From a bacterium (GTDB taxonomy: Bacteria; Oederibacteriota; JAAXVQ01; JAUVAV01): a stretch of 36,397 nucleotides of DNA. The DNA lies in NCBI GenBank assembly GCA_021108215.1, contig JAIORK010000047.1, forward strand, positions 1 to 36,397. The letters run 5' to 3'. Position numbers and translations under genes: made by a program. Positions 197 through 5,287 of this stretch are shown here, one piece after another. The notes beneath the pieces were generated by a model. That model worked only from the letters and a program-made list of their open reading frames with translations. It had not been told where the DNA came from and made no database searches. Within the stretch, counting starts at the first letter, position 1. The number at the start of each line of letters is the position of its first letter.

Positions 197-1876
197 CTAT
201 TTTCTATTCTTAATTTTATCGATTTTTGTTCGCTTCCACAGCGGTTTACTTTTTATTCCGCTATTTATAATCAACCTATTTTTTTTCATTTTGCTTAATA
301 AATTGCTGATTTTTTTAATCTTTTGCCCAGGTTCAAAAATTTCCGGCAATTTATTCAAAATGAGTTCATCAATTTCCCTTCGAGTGGCTGTCTTGAATTT
401 ATCCAAATATTTCAAAATCATCTTTTCATAATGTGCATCATGAAAACCCCGGTTTTTGATATAGCGAGCCTTATCCGAGGCAATTTCTGCCACGGCTGCG
501 GATATATAGACAGCCGGATATCGACCTTCAATAAGATTCCTTTTTTTCAGCCCCCGCGCTGCTTCACTGGATATTTTTTGTTTTTTCTGAATCCTGTCCA
601 ACGCCAGTACATCAGTCAGTTCCAAGTCTTTTTTCTCTATTAGGATGCGGGTGTAATTTTCATTGATAATCGTCCCGGGTATAATCATTTTCACATTATT
701 TCTGTCGCTCAAATCATATTCCGGCATGGGCATGAAGCGTTTCCTCTGCTCATGGAACATCCGCCTGATTCCCATACCCAGGGTGTCAATCATATCCAGG
801 CTGACCATGGCTTGCGCCAACAATGTATTGCGATATCGATACGGCGTGCGCTCGTGTAACAGATAATCCTCAACTTTCCCATCAAAAAAATTTCCTATGT
901 TTTGCAAAACCAATTTATCTCTATATTCCGTAACAATGATCCGGGCATTTTGGAAATAATCCTGATGGGCAATACAGTTATTGAGTGCTTCCAACACAAT
1001 ATTCGGATCGTATTTCGCGATTTCCACGGGCAGCAGACGGTTGAACGGCTGGATACGGTAATTGACATTGCGAATTTTGTTATAGATTTCTTCAATGTTC
1101 AATAAAAAGGGCGGGCCAAAATGTTCATAGCCCTCCTCTTCCCCCATCAACCGCCAAGTTATTTGGACAGGATGCGGGGATAGCCGGACAGAGGCTTCCG
1201 GTTTCCCGAGCAGAATAATGGCCGCTCTTGTCAATTGTCCATCCTGTAGTAACTTTATTTTTTCTAAAAAAACTTCATCTTTCCATTTTTTAATCACTGC
1301 TTTAAGCCTGGAGTTTTTCGATGCGACTTTTTTCCTGGCCAATTTTAAGGCATCCCGATCCAAGTCTTTGATTGATGCGTTTGGGCATAATTCAGTGCTC
1401 CAGTCTTTGGGCGCCTGATTGCGTATCTCATCTTGTTCAGGGAGGGATAGCGCACCCAGCGAGCTTCCATTTCTGCCATGATAATGCCCTTGCCAGGACG
1501 TAGGAATCCCCGGCAGCGCTGCCGGTATCTGCATCAAAATTACTCGTTTTTTATTCACCTCTACTTCATATATTTCCTGGAAGGTGATGCCATTGGTTTG
1601 TTGTGCAATCTCATGTTTCAGACTCTCCAAATCTTTCTTGCTTATCCGGTAGCGAGTCCCCACAATTGTCCTTGGTAGCTTGTCTTTAATCCCAAAAATC
1701 AGCCAACCAGATTGTTTCTTTTTTAGATTGGCTTCATTACTCAAGGCAGAAAAATATTTCCCGAGCTTTCTGGAATCAAAATCTTTTTTAGCCTCTTTAA
1801 ACTCAAGCCATTCTGTTTCTATAGGCATTGACCTAAACTCGGTTAGCTTTACTATTAATTGCTCTTCTGTAAACAT
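197..1876 (-). CDS. AlbA_2 (Schlafen-like) / ATP-binding transcriptional-regulator-like protein of a restriction locus
   Basis: This 559-residue protein has the layout of the COG2865 family. An N-terminal AlbA_2 (Schlafen AlbA_2) domain covers about residues 18-130 (LEFKEAK, then GWLIFGIKD and VILMQIPAA). A central GHKL-like ATP-binding part follows, with EALNNCIAHQDYF near residue 298 and an LGMGIRRM stretch near 370. The C-terminal 120 residues look like winged-helix segments (YEKMILKYLDKFKTATRREID). Family members are recurrent passengers of type I restriction loci; their biochemical role is not settled, so I do not assign one. The start is fixed by GGGGAGG six bases upstream of the ATG. 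That Shine-Dalgarno directly abuts the stop codon of a detached hsdM tail at 1887-1991, suggesting the gene once followed hsdM directly. Its nearest present promoter candidate is at 2033-2060. Confidence 0.85.
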   Translation of the reverse strand: MFTEEQLIVKLTEFRSMPIETEWLEFKEAKKDFDSRKLGKYFSALSNEANLKKKQSGWLIFGIKDKLPRTIVGTRYRISKKDLESLKHEIAQQTNGITFQEIYEVEVNKKRVILMQIPAALPGIPTSWQGHYHGRNGSSLGALSLPEQDEIRNQAPKDWSTELCPNASIKDLDRDALKLARKKVASKNSRLKAVIKKWKDEVFLEKIKLLQDGQLTRAAIILLGKPEASVRLSPHPVQITWRLMGEEEGYEHFGPPFLLNIEEIYNKIRNVNYRIQPFNRLLPVEIAKYDPNIVLEALNNCIAHQDYFQNARIIVTEYRDKLVLQNIGNFFDGKVEDYLLHERTPYRYRNTLLAQAMVSLDMIDTLGMGIRRMFHEQRKRFMPMPEYDLSDRNNVKMIIPGTIINENYTRILIEKKDLELTDVLALDRIQKKQKISSEAARGLKKRNLIEGRYPAVYISAAVAEIASDKARYIKNRGFHDAHYEKMILKYLDKFKTATRREIDELILNKLPEIFEPGQKIKKISNLLSKMKKNRLIINSGIKSKPLWKRTKIDKIKNRK

Positions 1877-1886
1877 AATGCCTCCC

Positions 1887-1991
1887 CTACACCAATCCCA
1901 ATTCTTTCAGATATTTATCCATTTCCTTGCGGACATACGCCTCCACCAGGGCACACTCTTTTTTATTTCTCTGAAAAACATTCGCCTTCAT
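1887..1991 (-). pseudogene. Detached hsdM 3'-end remnant
   Basis: Reading the minus strand from an ATG at 1989-1991 to a TAG at 1887-1889 gives 34 residues. The last 14 (RKEMDKYLKELGLV) are identical to the C-terminus of the intact hsdM at 3175-4701. The upstream 20 residues (ending ALVEAYV) differ from that HsdM. The frame is closed by a TAG directly above the ATG, and no Shine-Dalgarno is seen, so this is more likely the broken end of a second hsdM than a working peptide. It is followed after a few bases by the AlbA-type gene. It could instead be debris of a duplication that accompanied insertion of the abiF cassette. Confidence 0.7.
1889..1932. repeat. 44-bp direct repeat, copy A (hsdM tail)
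   Basis: This stretch matches 3177-3220 at 43 of 44 positions; the only difference is G at 1910 versus A at 3198. Both copies are in the same orientation and bracket the abiF cassette (promoter, RNA and gene). Similarity stops abruptly at GCGG on one side and at the stop codon region on the other. Confidence 0.9.
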
Positions 1992-2110: not shown

Positions 2111-3022
2111 TTACCCTTGTTGGTTTTTCCATATCGGGCATTCCTGCCAATCTTTCGGAAAACCCATAGGCTCCCATGGCAACTCTTTATAGCGATTCAG
2201 CAGATCCAAAAAACGCTCTTGCCAGCAACTTTTTGGTGCAATAATTCTCAACAAATACCGCAAAATGGTCAAAATGGAAAACATACGATTGGTTTTTCCA
2301 AAAACATCCACCGGTTCATACCATTCCGGTTGAATCCTTTTCTCCGGGATAAATGGTTTGATTGCCAATTCCCGGTCACGTAGCCGTCCATGATGGGCAC
2401 AGATGTTTCTGACATAATTCAAACTTCGGAGCCAGGAATTCAAGACCGGTCCTGGAATATCAAAGCACTTTGCGACCTTGACTTGAATGTGCTTCTCCAA
2501 TTCCTGATACAAGATGAGCATATTACCGAAAGTCATAAGCTCAGACGCCATCCACAATGGCAAATCATTATGCTCCAAATATTTCTGCTTAAAATGTTTT
2601 ACAAACTCTTCATGGCTTTTTTCCGCAGCATCCCGAAGGGTATTTTGCAATTTATTGATTTCATCAGATTTATTTTTCGAGCGCAAACAACTTGGGTTTA
2701 AATATACAAATGCATCTTGATGGTGAGTAGTAAATATCTCAGTCATTTTCGTTTTAACCGCAATTTCTATTCTTTCTATGGCATCAAGGACAATCAAACG
2801 CAGTTGGCGGTCAAAAGTATATCTTCTCCAGATTTTTTCAATAGTTATGTCCGGTTTAAACGTATTGTCAGGATTTCGAAAGGGATACCAATAGGTGCTA
2901 AGCCGGTAATAATTTACGCTACCTAAAATCGAGGTTAATAAGTCGCGGTCTGCTATTAATCCGCGTGAAATTAATTGGTCGGCTTGTTGTTCAAAGGTAA
3001 GTGAAGGTTTTTTATACTGCAT
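2111..3022 (-). CDS. abiF: AbiF/AbiD-family HEPN abortive-infection protein (Abi_2)
   Basis: The 303-residue product has the Abi_2 (COG4823) pattern: KKPSLTFEQQADQLISRGL at the N-terminus, then NYYRLSTYWYPFR around residues 37-49, a central helical region, and SLNYVRNICAHHGRLRDR near residues 200-216. The last segment holds the HEPN ribonuclease signature RNxxxH at R205-N206-H210, expected to cleave RNA as a dimer. I chose the ATG at 3020-3022 because AGGAGGG sits five bases upstream; an upstream ATG at 3062-3064 would run through a terminator hairpin. In this family the toxin is linked to a structured RNA encoded just upstream, and such an element is present here (3036-3096). It lies between hsdM and an hsdM-tail repeat. 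The likely role is phage defence by abortive infection or an RNA-antitoxin toxin; this is inferred from the family. Confidence 0.88.
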   Translation of the reverse strand: MQYKKPSLTFEQQADQLISRGLIADRDLLTSILGSVNYYRLSTYWYPFRNPDNTFKPDITIEKIWRRYTFDRQLRLIVLDAIERIEIAVKTKMTEIFTTHHQDAFVYLNPSCLRSKNKSDEINKLQNTLRDAAEKSHEEFVKHFKQKYLEHNDLPLWMASELMTFGNMLILYQELEKHIQVKVAKCFDIPGPVLNSWLRSLNYVRNICAHHGRLRDRELAIKPFIPEKRIQPEWYEPVDVFGKTNRMFSILTILRYLLRIIAPKSCWQERFLDLLNRYKELPWEPMGFPKDWQECPIWKNQQG

Positions 3023-3035
3023 AAAAACCCTCCTG

Positions 3036-3096
3036 AAAAAGAAAAACCCGCCACATTTTGGCATATCCTCGAAAGGACCTAGGCCTGGCGGGTACT
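3036..3096 (-). ncRNA. abiF-type structured RNA ending in an intrinsic terminator
   Basis: The predicted transcript starts near 3096, seven bases after a good -10. An outer stem ACCCGCCA (3093-3086) pairs with TGGCGGGT (3053-3046) perfectly. It encloses a GGC/GCC helix and an inner hairpin with arms GTCCT/AGGAT closed by a UUCG tetraloop (about 3079-3066). After the outer stem comes a U tract, TTTTTCTTTTT, at 3046-3036, giving an RNA of about 60 nt. The abiF start codon lies 14 bases further on. Position, size, terminator-like ending and the HEPN gene downstream agree with the abiF RNA motif known from comparative genomics. I propose it is the antitoxin or guide-like partner of AbiF; that function is inference. 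Confidence 0.75.
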
Positions 3097-3102
3097 AAAA
3101 TT

Positions 3103-3131
3103 AGTATCGTAGTATTCTGATAGTTCGTCAA
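3103..3131 (-). promoter_or_regulatory. Sigma70 promoter of the abiF RNA
   Basis: TTGACG (3131-3126) and GATACT (3108-3103) are spaced by exactly 17 bases on the minus strand. The predicted start at about 3096 falls just before the first stem of the structured RNA. The promoter lies wholly in the gap after hsdM, so the RNA can be made independently of the hsdS-hsdM operon. Confidence 0.75.
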
Positions 3132-3174: not shown

Positions 3175-4701
3175 TCACACCAATCCCAATTCTTTCAAAT
3201 ATTTATCCATTTCCTTGCGGGTTTTTCCCAGTTCCCCTTCAATTTGCTTGATCTCCTGCTGTACGGCTTTGATGTCGATATCTTCCTCTTCTTCAAAGGT
3301 ATCCACATACCGCGGAATGTTGAGATTGAATTCCGCTTCTCTGATTTCATCGAGTGTAGTCAGATGAGAGTACTTTTCAATCTCTTTGAATCCTTTGTAG
3401 GTGTCGATTATTTTCTTGATATCCTGCCGGCGCAATTTGTTCTGCTTTTTGTTGTCATCAAATTCGCGGCTGGCATCAATAAAGAGGATGTGCTTATCCC
3501 GCTTGGTTTTGGCCTTGGTCCAGGACTTGCGACCCTTATTGAAGACCATGATGGCGGCCGGAATACCCGTTCCGAAAAACAATTGAGACGGCAGTCCGAT
3601 AACTGCTTCCAGAATATTTTCTTCTATAAATTGCCGGCGTATTTTCCCTTCTGCGCCACTGCGGAAAAGCACACCATGCGGGACAACCACCCCGACTTTG
3701 CCTTCGCCCTCCATGGCAATATCCACCATGTGGGTGATAAAAGCATAGTCCCCGCGGCTCTTGGGAGGCAAACCACGCCAAAAACGGTTGTATGGATCGC
3801 TTTCCGCTTCTTTGATCCCCCACTTATCCAGTGAGAATGGCGGATTGGCAACCACGATGTTGAATCGAATAAGATCATCTTTTTCCAAAAGCTTGGGATT
3901 GGTGATGGTATCACACCATTCTATCCGGGCATTATCCACATCGTGCAAAAACATATTCATCCTGCACAAAGCCCAGGTTGAGCCATTACTTTCCTGACCA
4001 GCCAGAAAATAGTTTGGTGACCCAATATGTTTCCCCACTTTGATCAGAAGCGATCCTGAACCACAGGCAGGATCACATATTTTATCCCCTTCTTTGGGGT
4101 CCATCAATTCTGCAATAAGTGTGGATACTTCCGGTGGCGTGTAAAATTCCCCGGCTTTTTTACCTGCTCCTGCCGCAAATCGTTCTATCAGGTATTCATA
4201 AACATCGCCAATCACATCCCGATTGCCTATATGGGATGGTCGCAGGTCCATCTTCTCTTCATCACCAAAATCTTCAAGCAGGTTTTTGAGACGTCTATTT
4301 CGTTCTTTTGCCAGTCCCAGATTCACGTCACTATTGAAATCAATGTTACGGAATACACCTTCCAGTTTGGTTTTATTAACATCTTCCATTTTTTCCAAAG
4401 CAATATTAATCAGTTCACCGATATTATCTACATCTCTTTTTTTAAACAGATAATCAAATTCAGCTGCTTTTGGTACAACAAAGCGTTCGCGACCGAGAGC
4501 ACGCTCAATCCGAGTTTTGTCACCTTTGTATTTTTCTGCATACTCTCTGCGTTTGTCTTTCCATATATCACTGGTATATTTGATAAAGAGCATGGTCAGA
4601 ATATAGTTTTTGTACTCTGCCGGATCAACCGACCCTCTAAAAGAATCACAGGCTTTCCAGGCTTGATCATTGACTGTTTTTTGATTGATCGGTGAATTCA
4701 T
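3175..4701 (-). CDS. hsdM: Type I restriction-modification system modification subunit HsdM
   Basis: The 508-residue protein is an N6-adenine DNA methyltransferase of the HsdM family. An N-terminal helical HsdM_N domain covers about residues 8-150. The catalytic domain carries the AdoMet-binding motif DPACGSGSL at 210-218 and the catalytic NPPF motif at 286-289. A charged coiled coil forms the C-terminus (EELGKTRKEMDKYLKELGLV region). It would act as the M2 part of an M2S complex that methylates the site chosen by HsdS. The ATG is preceded by AGGAGA, and the gene overlaps the end of hsdS by 35 bases, so the two are translationally coupled in an S-M order. Its last 44 bases recur at 1889-1932. 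HsdR was not found in the window; it may lie beyond position 1 or be absent. Confidence 0.95.
   Translation of the reverse strand: MNSPINQKTVNDQAWKACDSFRGSVDPAEYKNYILTMLFIKYTSDIWKDKRREYAEKYKGDKTRIERALGRERFVVPKAAEFDYLFKKRDVDNIGELINIALEKMEDVNKTKLEGVFRNIDFNSDVNLGLAKERNRRLKNLLEDFGDEEKMDLRPSHIGNRDVIGDVYEYLIERFAAGAGKKAGEFYTPPEVSTLIAELMDPKEGDKICDPACGSGSLLIKVGKHIGSPNYFLAGQESNGSTWALCRMNMFLHDVDNARIEWCDTITNPKLLEKDDLIRFNIVVANPPFSLDKWGIKEAESDPYNRFWRGLPPKSRGDYAFITHMVDIAMEGEGKVGVVVPHGVLFRSGAEGKIRRQFIEENILEAVIGLPSQLFFGTGIPAAIMVFNKGRKSWTKAKTKRDKHILFIDASREFDDNKKQNKLRRQDIKKIIDTYKGFKEIEKYSHLTTLDEIREAEFNLNIPRYVDTFEEEEDIDIKAVQQEIKQIEGELGKTRKEMDKYLKELGLV
3177..3220. repeat. 44-bp direct repeat, copy B (3' end of hsdM)
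   Basis: This is the intact 3' end of hsdM and the partner of copy A at 1889-1932 (43/44 identity). The two copies lie 1288 bases apart. Recombination between them would delete the abiF cassette and rejoin hsdM to the Shine-Dalgarno of the AlbA-type gene. Confidence 0.9.
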
Positions 4702-5287
4702 TGATATCTCCTGATTGGTAAATTTTATTGATGCAAAATTGGTTGATTAGTTTTTCTTTATTGTCTTTCAACTCATCCAACAATTGAATTTCTTTATTTT
4801 TCAGCTCGATTATTTTTTCAATCTTAGCTTGAATTTCAATCGGAGGCAATTCAATCCTTATATCTGCTAAAACTTTTATCGATACAAATGATAGATAACT
4901 GCTACCCGCTCTCTCCTGGAGCACATTTTGAATCGGCGCTTGATTAAGCCACCAGGCTAAGTATCCCGGTCTCGCTTTATCCGTTTTAAGTCTACAAACA
5001 TAAAAAGTACTTGCCGCTAATACATTACTATAATTTTCTTTAATATGAACAGACTGATGATTAAACCCTCTTGCCTGAAACAAAACGTTATCTTGTTTCA
5101 CTGCGTAGAGCTCCGGTTTACGCCTGGGACAAAACCTTATCAAATTGTTAAAATCTATTTTCTTGTCTTCCTTAATATCTTTTGCCTGAATAAGCCTGTA
5201 CGTGCCTTCTTTTTCAGAGATGATTTTTTCACTTGATTGATATCCTGCCTGTAGTTCAACGATATCTCTTAATAATAACCTCTCCAT
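4667..5287 (-). CDS. hsdS: Half-size type I restriction specificity subunit HsdS
   Basis: This 206-residue protein has one target-recognition domain (about residues 5-150, with YRLIQAKDI and an ELPPIEIQAKIEKI end) and a single conserved coiled-coil spacer (about 152-190, EKIIELKNKEIQLLDELKDNK). Ordinary HsdS subunits are about 400 residues with two recognition domains and two spacers. Half-size subunits can dimerise and then recognise a symmetric bipartite sequence; this is known for truncated type IC subunits and is inferred here. The ATG is preceded by GGAGG at four bases, and the gene is first in the operon behind a consensus promoter (5317-5345). Nothing suggests a frameshift: the stop is followed at once by coupled hsdM. 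Confidence 0.9.
   Translation of the reverse strand: MERLLLRDIVELQAGYQSSEKIISEKEGTYRLIQAKDIKEDKKIDFNNLIRFCPRRKPELYAVKQDNVLFQARGFNHQSVHIKENYSNVLAASTFYVCRLKTDKARPGYLAWWLNQAPIQNVLQERAGSSYLSFVSIKVLADIRIELPPIEIQAKIEKIIELKNKEIQLLDELKDNKEKLINQFCINKIYQSGDINEFTDQSKNSQ

Follow-up and report, generated by a model that had tools for sequence, protein, structure and literature searches.

An AbiF-type toxin gene with a predicted RNA antitoxin in a bacterial type I restriction locus, and solitary abiF-type RNAs of phages as candidate decoys

The abiF cassette and its restriction locus

The window analysed here is the whole of contig JAIORK010000047.1 (36,397 nt). Its minus strand carries a predicted promoter, a structured RNA, a Shine-Dalgarno sequence and an abiF gene, which follow each other from position 3131 down to 2111 in the order -35 box, 17-nt spacer, -10 box, RNA, AGGAGG and abiF start codon. 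The -35 box TTGACG (3126..3131, minus strand) and the -10 box GATACT (3103..3108, minus strand) are consensus matches only; they lie ahead of the hairpin RNA with the spacing that a first-pass annotation of this DNA had given without naming the strand, and together form a predicted sigma-70-type promoter with a 9/12 match to the consensus. The chance level of such sites is high (5 found versus 1.4 expected in 500 bp), and the promoter counts as evidence mainly because relatives of the locus have promoter-like sequence at the same place. The RNA sequence, UUUAGUACCCGCCAGGCCUAGGUCCUUUCGAGGAUAUGCCAAAAUGUGGCGGGUUUUUCUUUUU, is followed by the Shine-Dalgarno AGGAGG (3029..3034, minus strand) and by the ATG of a 303-codon Abi_2 gene (abiF, 2111..3022, minus strand) coding for a predicted HEPN RNase toxin.

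The AbiF protein scores 185 bits with the Pfam model Abi_2 (cut-off 25.6) and 235 bits with the PADLOC model AbiD. The HEPN motif R205-N206-x3-H210 that had been read in this Abi_2 gene is present. A sequence search of the PDB returned one match, 8vz6 (PbAbiF, E 1e-38, about 28% identity), in which R210 and H215 align with R205 and H210 of the window protein; loss of R210 and H215 inactivates PbAbiF (PMC12373285). The AlphaFold2 model of the window protein, obtained from a five-sequence alignment (mean pLDDT 71), had the same entry, 'PbAbiF dimer bound to ncRNA', as its sole significant Foldseek match (E 1.2e-13, TM 0.78). Cas13 has been described as derived from AbiF, a HEPN protein family (PMC12373285, PMC12737573). 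The earlier suggestion of a relative of Cas13 ancestors holds for the AbiF family as a whole, given the match to 8vz6, and nothing special was seen in the window copy. The window has one Abi_2 domain in 303 aa, one copy of the RNA and no CRISPR array, and is thus set apart from Cas13 and type VI systems.

The restriction locus in which the cassette had been placed is borne out by two of its genes. Upstream of abiF and on the same strand lie hsdM, coding for a type I DNA methyltransferase subunit (3175..4701, minus strand; TIGR00497, 306 bits, above cut-off), and a half-length hsdS with one target-recognition domain (4667..5287, minus strand; 206 aa, Methylase_S), whose product may act as a dimer. 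Downstream of abiF, a gene codes for a protein with the Pfam domains Schlafen AlbA_2 and HATPase_c_4 (197..1876, minus strand). The type I parts in the window are hsdM and the half hsdS; no hsdR was identified in it, and the contig ends beyond the Schlafen gene. At this contig end, beside the Schlafen-AlbA gene, an 11-nt tandem repeat (CTTCTATTCTT) occurs four times at positions 52-110.

The abiF cassette is inserted between hsdM and the Schlafen-like gene, and its insertion is flanked by a direct repeat. The last hsdM codons (RKEMDKYLKELGLV-stop; copy A, 3177..3220, minus strand) recur, by repeat comparison, just before the Schlafen-AlbA gene (copy B, 1889..1932, minus strand), the two copies of 44 nt being 98% identical. 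This duplicated hsdM 3' end encloses promoter, RNA and abiF, and the repeat core is found in only two copies genome-wide. At 8 of 67 abiF loci the flanking direct repeats score at least 29, compared with 1 of 228 control placements in the same loci (p 3.7e-5 by Fisher's test, with no correction for relatedness among loci), and flanking repeats of 38-206 nt are also found at L023, L025, L035, L049, L071, L073 and L078. The hsdM 3'-end duplication around the cassette is new here, as is the excess of flanking repeats at abiF cassettes over control placements. The repeats could be the mark of an insertion by recombination that duplicates the end of the neighbouring gene.

The association with type I restriction recurs among relatives. 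Of 82 relatives, 19 have hsdM-like genes within 5 kb of abiF, in every case on the same strand as abiF. A type I subunit is encoded by the nearest downstream gene at up to 15 of 58 loci (10 HsdR, 3 HsdS and 2 HsdM) and by the nearest upstream gene at about 9 of 64; on an A. pittii plasmid the gene order is hsdS-abiF-hsdR. Since AbiF is often cargo of type I restriction operons, cells may combine DNA-cutting and RNA-cutting defence layers, the latter acting perhaps when DNA-cutting restriction fails.

The abiF-type RNA with and without its toxin

The predicted antitoxin and terminator is an RNA of about 58 nt (3042..3099, minus strand, on which all its parts lie). Its outer stem P1, a perfect 8-bp helix, is formed by the arms ACCCGCCA (3086..3093) and UGGCGGGU (3046..3053). 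Inside it, the arm GGC of stem P2 (3083..3085) pairs with GCC (3060..3062), which is followed by an unpaired AAAAUG (3054-3059), and the hairpin P3 folds as GUCCU-UUCG-AGGAU (3065..3078). The U tract UUUUUCUUUUU (3036..3046) completes, by its sequence, an intrinsic terminator. The tight hairpin RNA of the first-pass annotation, with its outer stem, UUCG hairpin and U tract, is there as described. The predicted fold has a minimum free energy of -22.5 kcal/mol (z -2.7 to -3.1), equalled by 3/200 and 2/200 shuffled sequences in two sets.

The annotation had further assigned this RNA to the abiF RNA motif. When the corresponding Rfam model RF03085 was run, it placed a match at the site (3046-3092), with 18.1 bits and an E of 0.97 for 301 nt; the gathering threshold of the model is 37, and Rfam at this threshold gives no match in the window. 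By Rfam's rule the RNA is therefore not filed in the family. Like RF03085 members, it lies upstream of abiF and has two nested stems with a conserved core, but its P3 hairpin is longer. Further Rfam matches in the region (ZEB2_AS1_4, snoU18, snoR41, Ms_IGR-2) had weak scores far below cut-off and were discarded as chance.

The 18.1-bit match being weak by itself, an independent covariance model was built, on which the homology of the RNA rests. A search with set A1, five AbiF proteins of the phylum to which the window belongs, retrieved 80 AbiF loci in GTDB genomes and 36 in viral contigs. From their upstream RNAs the 47 most clearly recognisable were taken, the window being left out, to make the alignment A2 and the model R1. 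R1 scores the window RNA at 43.8 bits (E 3.7e-10); this is its sole match in the 36-kb window and the only good one across the source genome, where the next has an E of 3.6. Among 82 scored AbiF loci (80 genomic and 2 viral) from many phyla, 78 carry an R1 RNA at most 76 nt upstream of the start codon, 47 of these 78 having trained the model. The sequence homology to a model from which the window was held out supports the window RNA as an abiF-type RNA. The assignment to the motif stands in this sense, and short of the Rfam threshold. L006, a relative of the window, passes the RF03085 gathering score; the current Rfam model misses members with a longer hairpin.

The structure is conserved by compensation. 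In A2, 98.3% of the cells are paired, and two-sided changes occur in 8 of 11 pairs, 0/500 shuffles reaching any of the measures. Seven of the eight P1 pairs show such changes among relatives. The outer P2 pair is AU, CG, GC, UA or GU, next to invariant GC and CG pairs, a pattern with which the GGC/GCC of the window is consistent, and the P3 hairpin varies in both sequence and length. The R1 alignment shows the window RNA to depart from the consensus at the P3 entry (CUAG, not CUCU) and by a two-base deletion in its leader.

RNA and toxin are also met apart. In 43 genomes of the window's phylum, all five intact abiF genes have the RNA, and another four strong RNAs have no intact toxin gene behind them. 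The RNA lies ahead of an abiF cut after about 36 codons in G009:C158, precedes only the C-terminus of abiF in G018 and a broken abiF in G044, and stands with a promoter directly before hsdS-hsdR, where there is no abiF, in G013 (L143, 2158-2223). An RNA that protects against the toxin would be expected to show such an asymmetry. The G013 RNA is located behind small HicA/HicB-like genes and hsdM. Two weak matches of 23 bits, in G042 and G010, are without the inner core and were set aside as ordinary terminators.

In 195 genomes of the phylum of L034, R1 found 23 RNAs. Of these, 9 belong to 8 intact abiF genes, 3 stand ahead of an abiF damaged by truncation or by deletions that take away its HEPN motif region, and 11 have no recognisable abiF. 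At L179 (G228) and L184 (G132), in-frame internal deletions remove the HEPN motif region of abiF and the upstream RNA is intact. In these 195 genomes, 8 abiF genes had no strict R1 match; inspection revealed a recognisable RNA at 4 of them (L204, L209, L211, L212), no RNA at 3 and a doubtful one at 1. The proteins concerned are divergent, and these 4 AbiF genes without a clear upstream RNA indicate that pairing is not universal. Overall, the RNA is often found without the toxin, and the toxin less often without the RNA; an antitoxin would be expected to show this pattern, although it is not a clean rule.

Proposed mechanism and alternative readings

An AbiF toxin-RNA pair is already experimentally established in other bacteria. 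The AbiF-linked RNA RCd22 of Clostridioides difficile shares its promoter with abiF and ends at a terminator before it; RCd22 lowers abiF expression and binds AbiF, which it neutralises both in cis and in trans, and the toxicity of this AbiF requires R202/H207 (PMC12373285). According to the summary in PMC12737573, PbAbiF, which cuts single-stranded RNA, is inhibited by the RNA AbiFr, and AbiF gave rise to Cas13. PbAbiF reportedly binds one RNA per monomer (Zilberzwige-Tal et al., as cited in PMC12373285 and PMC12737573).

The window locus has in common with AbiF-RCd22 of the C. difficile phage phi027 an Abi_2 HEPN toxin with RNxxxH, a structured upstream RNA, a terminator between RNA and toxin gene, a shared promoter and a Shine-Dalgarno before abiF (PMC12373285). 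RCd22 has two abiF motifs and a separate terminator and belongs to a prophage lysis module, whereas the window RNA has one motif that is itself the terminator and lies in a type I restriction locus. The comparison with PbAbiF-AbiFr from a Prevotellaceae bacterium (PDB 8vz6) concerns the protein alone, which matches in sequence and fold, with the two catalytic residues R and H in alignment. Type III toxin-antitoxin systems (ToxIN, AbiQ, CptNI) likewise have an RNA antitoxin ahead of the toxin gene with a terminator between, but their toxin fold and RNA are unrelated; tandem repeats of the antitoxin RNA are absent here, R1 finding a single copy in window and genome.

The sequence, structure, conservation and position of the cassette were observed, as was the homology of both partners to studied ones. 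The window very probably encodes an AbiF HEPN RNase toxin and a cis-encoded RNA that terminates transcription and binds and inhibits this toxin. The pair, of the type ancestral to Cas13, would thereby be extended to a poorly known phylum. As the order of the parts is that of AbiF-RCd22, the same mechanism is proposed, with transcription, binding, neutralisation, RNase toxicity and an anti-phage role by analogy with the homologues. The single promoter would give rise to the RNA of about 58 nt, and P1 with the U tract would halt most transcription ahead of abiF, so that the RNA would be in excess over toxin mRNA. Read-through would yield a small amount of AbiF, whose homodimer would be bound by the RNA and its HEPN RNase site (R205/H210) blocked. 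Phage infection would upset the balance between RNA and toxin; free AbiF would then cut RNA and halt growth, thus protecting the population.

That the hairpin is a mere intrinsic terminator or attenuator of the abiF leader, acting only in cis, appears improbable. An 8-bp GC-rich stem and a U tract in a 5' leader are what such an element would look like, and RCd22 also represses through termination (PMC12373285), but a terminator has no need of the invariant core GC-C-U...GC-N-C-A or of covariation in P2, and the RNA is retained at many loci where there is no abiF to attenuate. A crRNA-like role, in which the RNA would guide AbiF to particular RNA targets instead of inhibiting it, draws on AbiF being the proposed source of Cas13 (PMC12737573). 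We find it scarcely credible: its variable part pairs with itself as a hairpin whose length changes, with no spacer-like segment, the invariant parts sit where protein contact is expected, and AbiF homologues are neutralised by their RNA.

The state of the cassette must also be considered, as broken abiF genes are common in relatives, the flanking duplication is a sign of recombination and the Rfam score of the window RNA is low. It could accordingly be a decaying passenger whose abiF or RNA no longer functions in the source genome. The abiF frame is intact with its catalytic motif, P1 is perfect, and promoter, Shine-Dalgarno and terminator are in place, which makes such decay very unlikely.

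Solitary RNAs in phages

The main value of the window is to have led to abiF RNAs in phage genomes that have no AbiF. IMG/VR was scanned with the pattern CCCGCCAAGCCTCTN{4,24}GCTCAA, of which the 3' arm and the U tract are not part; 62 contigs matched, most with a complete RNA by R1, and the reversed pattern matched 0. The pattern GCCTCTCAACGATGCNCA gave mostly chance matches in viral contigs, with only 14/78 passing R1, and was rejected. Of 60 viral RNAs checked with the AbiF HMM, 48 have enough flanking sequence for a toxin gene, yet no AbiF, 2 have AbiF and 10 are too near a contig end. Loci with a solitary RNA include L244, L354 and L369, and terminase, portal, head, tail, endolysin and HNH proteins are among the products encoded around viral RNAs.

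Named phages gave a similar picture. BLAST detected the RNA in the Aeromonas T7-like phages T7-Ah, PZL-Ah152, PZL-Ah8 and vB_AhaP_PT2, in Acinetobacter phage Acj61, Salicola phage CGphi29 and Synechococcus phages, and in 53 mycobacteriophage records; it is intergenic there, with no abiF nearby. AbiF protein occurs in 86 phage records, by tally none of them in these RNA-bearing genera. RF03085 scores the solitary RNAs of Acj61 at 58.0, Thibault at 54.9, T7-Ah at 50.7 and CGphi29 at 50.1 bits, so that their finding does not rest on R1. These loci are L520 (Acj61), L522 (Thibault), L519 (T7-Ah) and L521 (CGphi29), with the RNA near position 2500 of each. In 28 solitary RNAs aligned to R1, two-sided changes occur in 8 of 11 pairs (0/500 shuffles), the alignment being fitted to R1 and biased towards it. 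Compensated stems are also seen in phages not chosen by R1, as CCCGACA/UGUCGGG in T7-Ah and ACCAGCC/GGCUGGU in Acj61. In T7-Ah, a sequence of the T7 promoter type (ACTATAGGGA) closely precedes the RNA. The window RNA itself had no BLAST match in phages, and comparison by eye of the phage RNAs with AbiF RNAs from their host genus (Acinetobacter, and plasmids of Mycolicibacterium) revealed no closer likeness.

Very different lytic phages (T7-like, T4-like and mycobacteriophages) thus keep a structured RNA without AbiF. The closest analogues are the Racr RNA anti-CRISPRs, also solitary host-defence RNAs in phage genomes (PMC10651486); Racrs mimic CRISPR repeats, whereas solitary abiF RNAs would mimic the AbiF antitoxin. 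By this analogy, the solitary abiF RNAs of phages and other genomes are candidate decoys, with about an even chance of being produced in the course of infection so that they bind the AbiF of the host and silence it. For the cyanophage S-CREM1, an annotated abiF sRNA and three phages counted in Rfam are mentioned in the excerpt of PMC9964418, in which its authors do not propose an anti-AbiF role, and no such proposal for solitary phage RNAs was found in the literature searched. A DNA region from phage sk1 is reported to protect phage 712 from AbiF (Rince et al. 2000, as cited in PMC12737573). R1 found no abiF RNA in sk1, which has only scattered 11-mers in common with the pNP40 abiF leader, and this case gives no support to the decoy idea. 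If solitary RNAs do disarm AbiF, a whole class of RNA counter-defence could be found by a simple motif search and tested in laboratory hosts.

Two or three abiF RNAs are arranged in tandem at L018 (45-300), L063 (4655-4963) and L371 (6645-6806) and in G214; at L018 and L063, each has its own terminator-like U tract.
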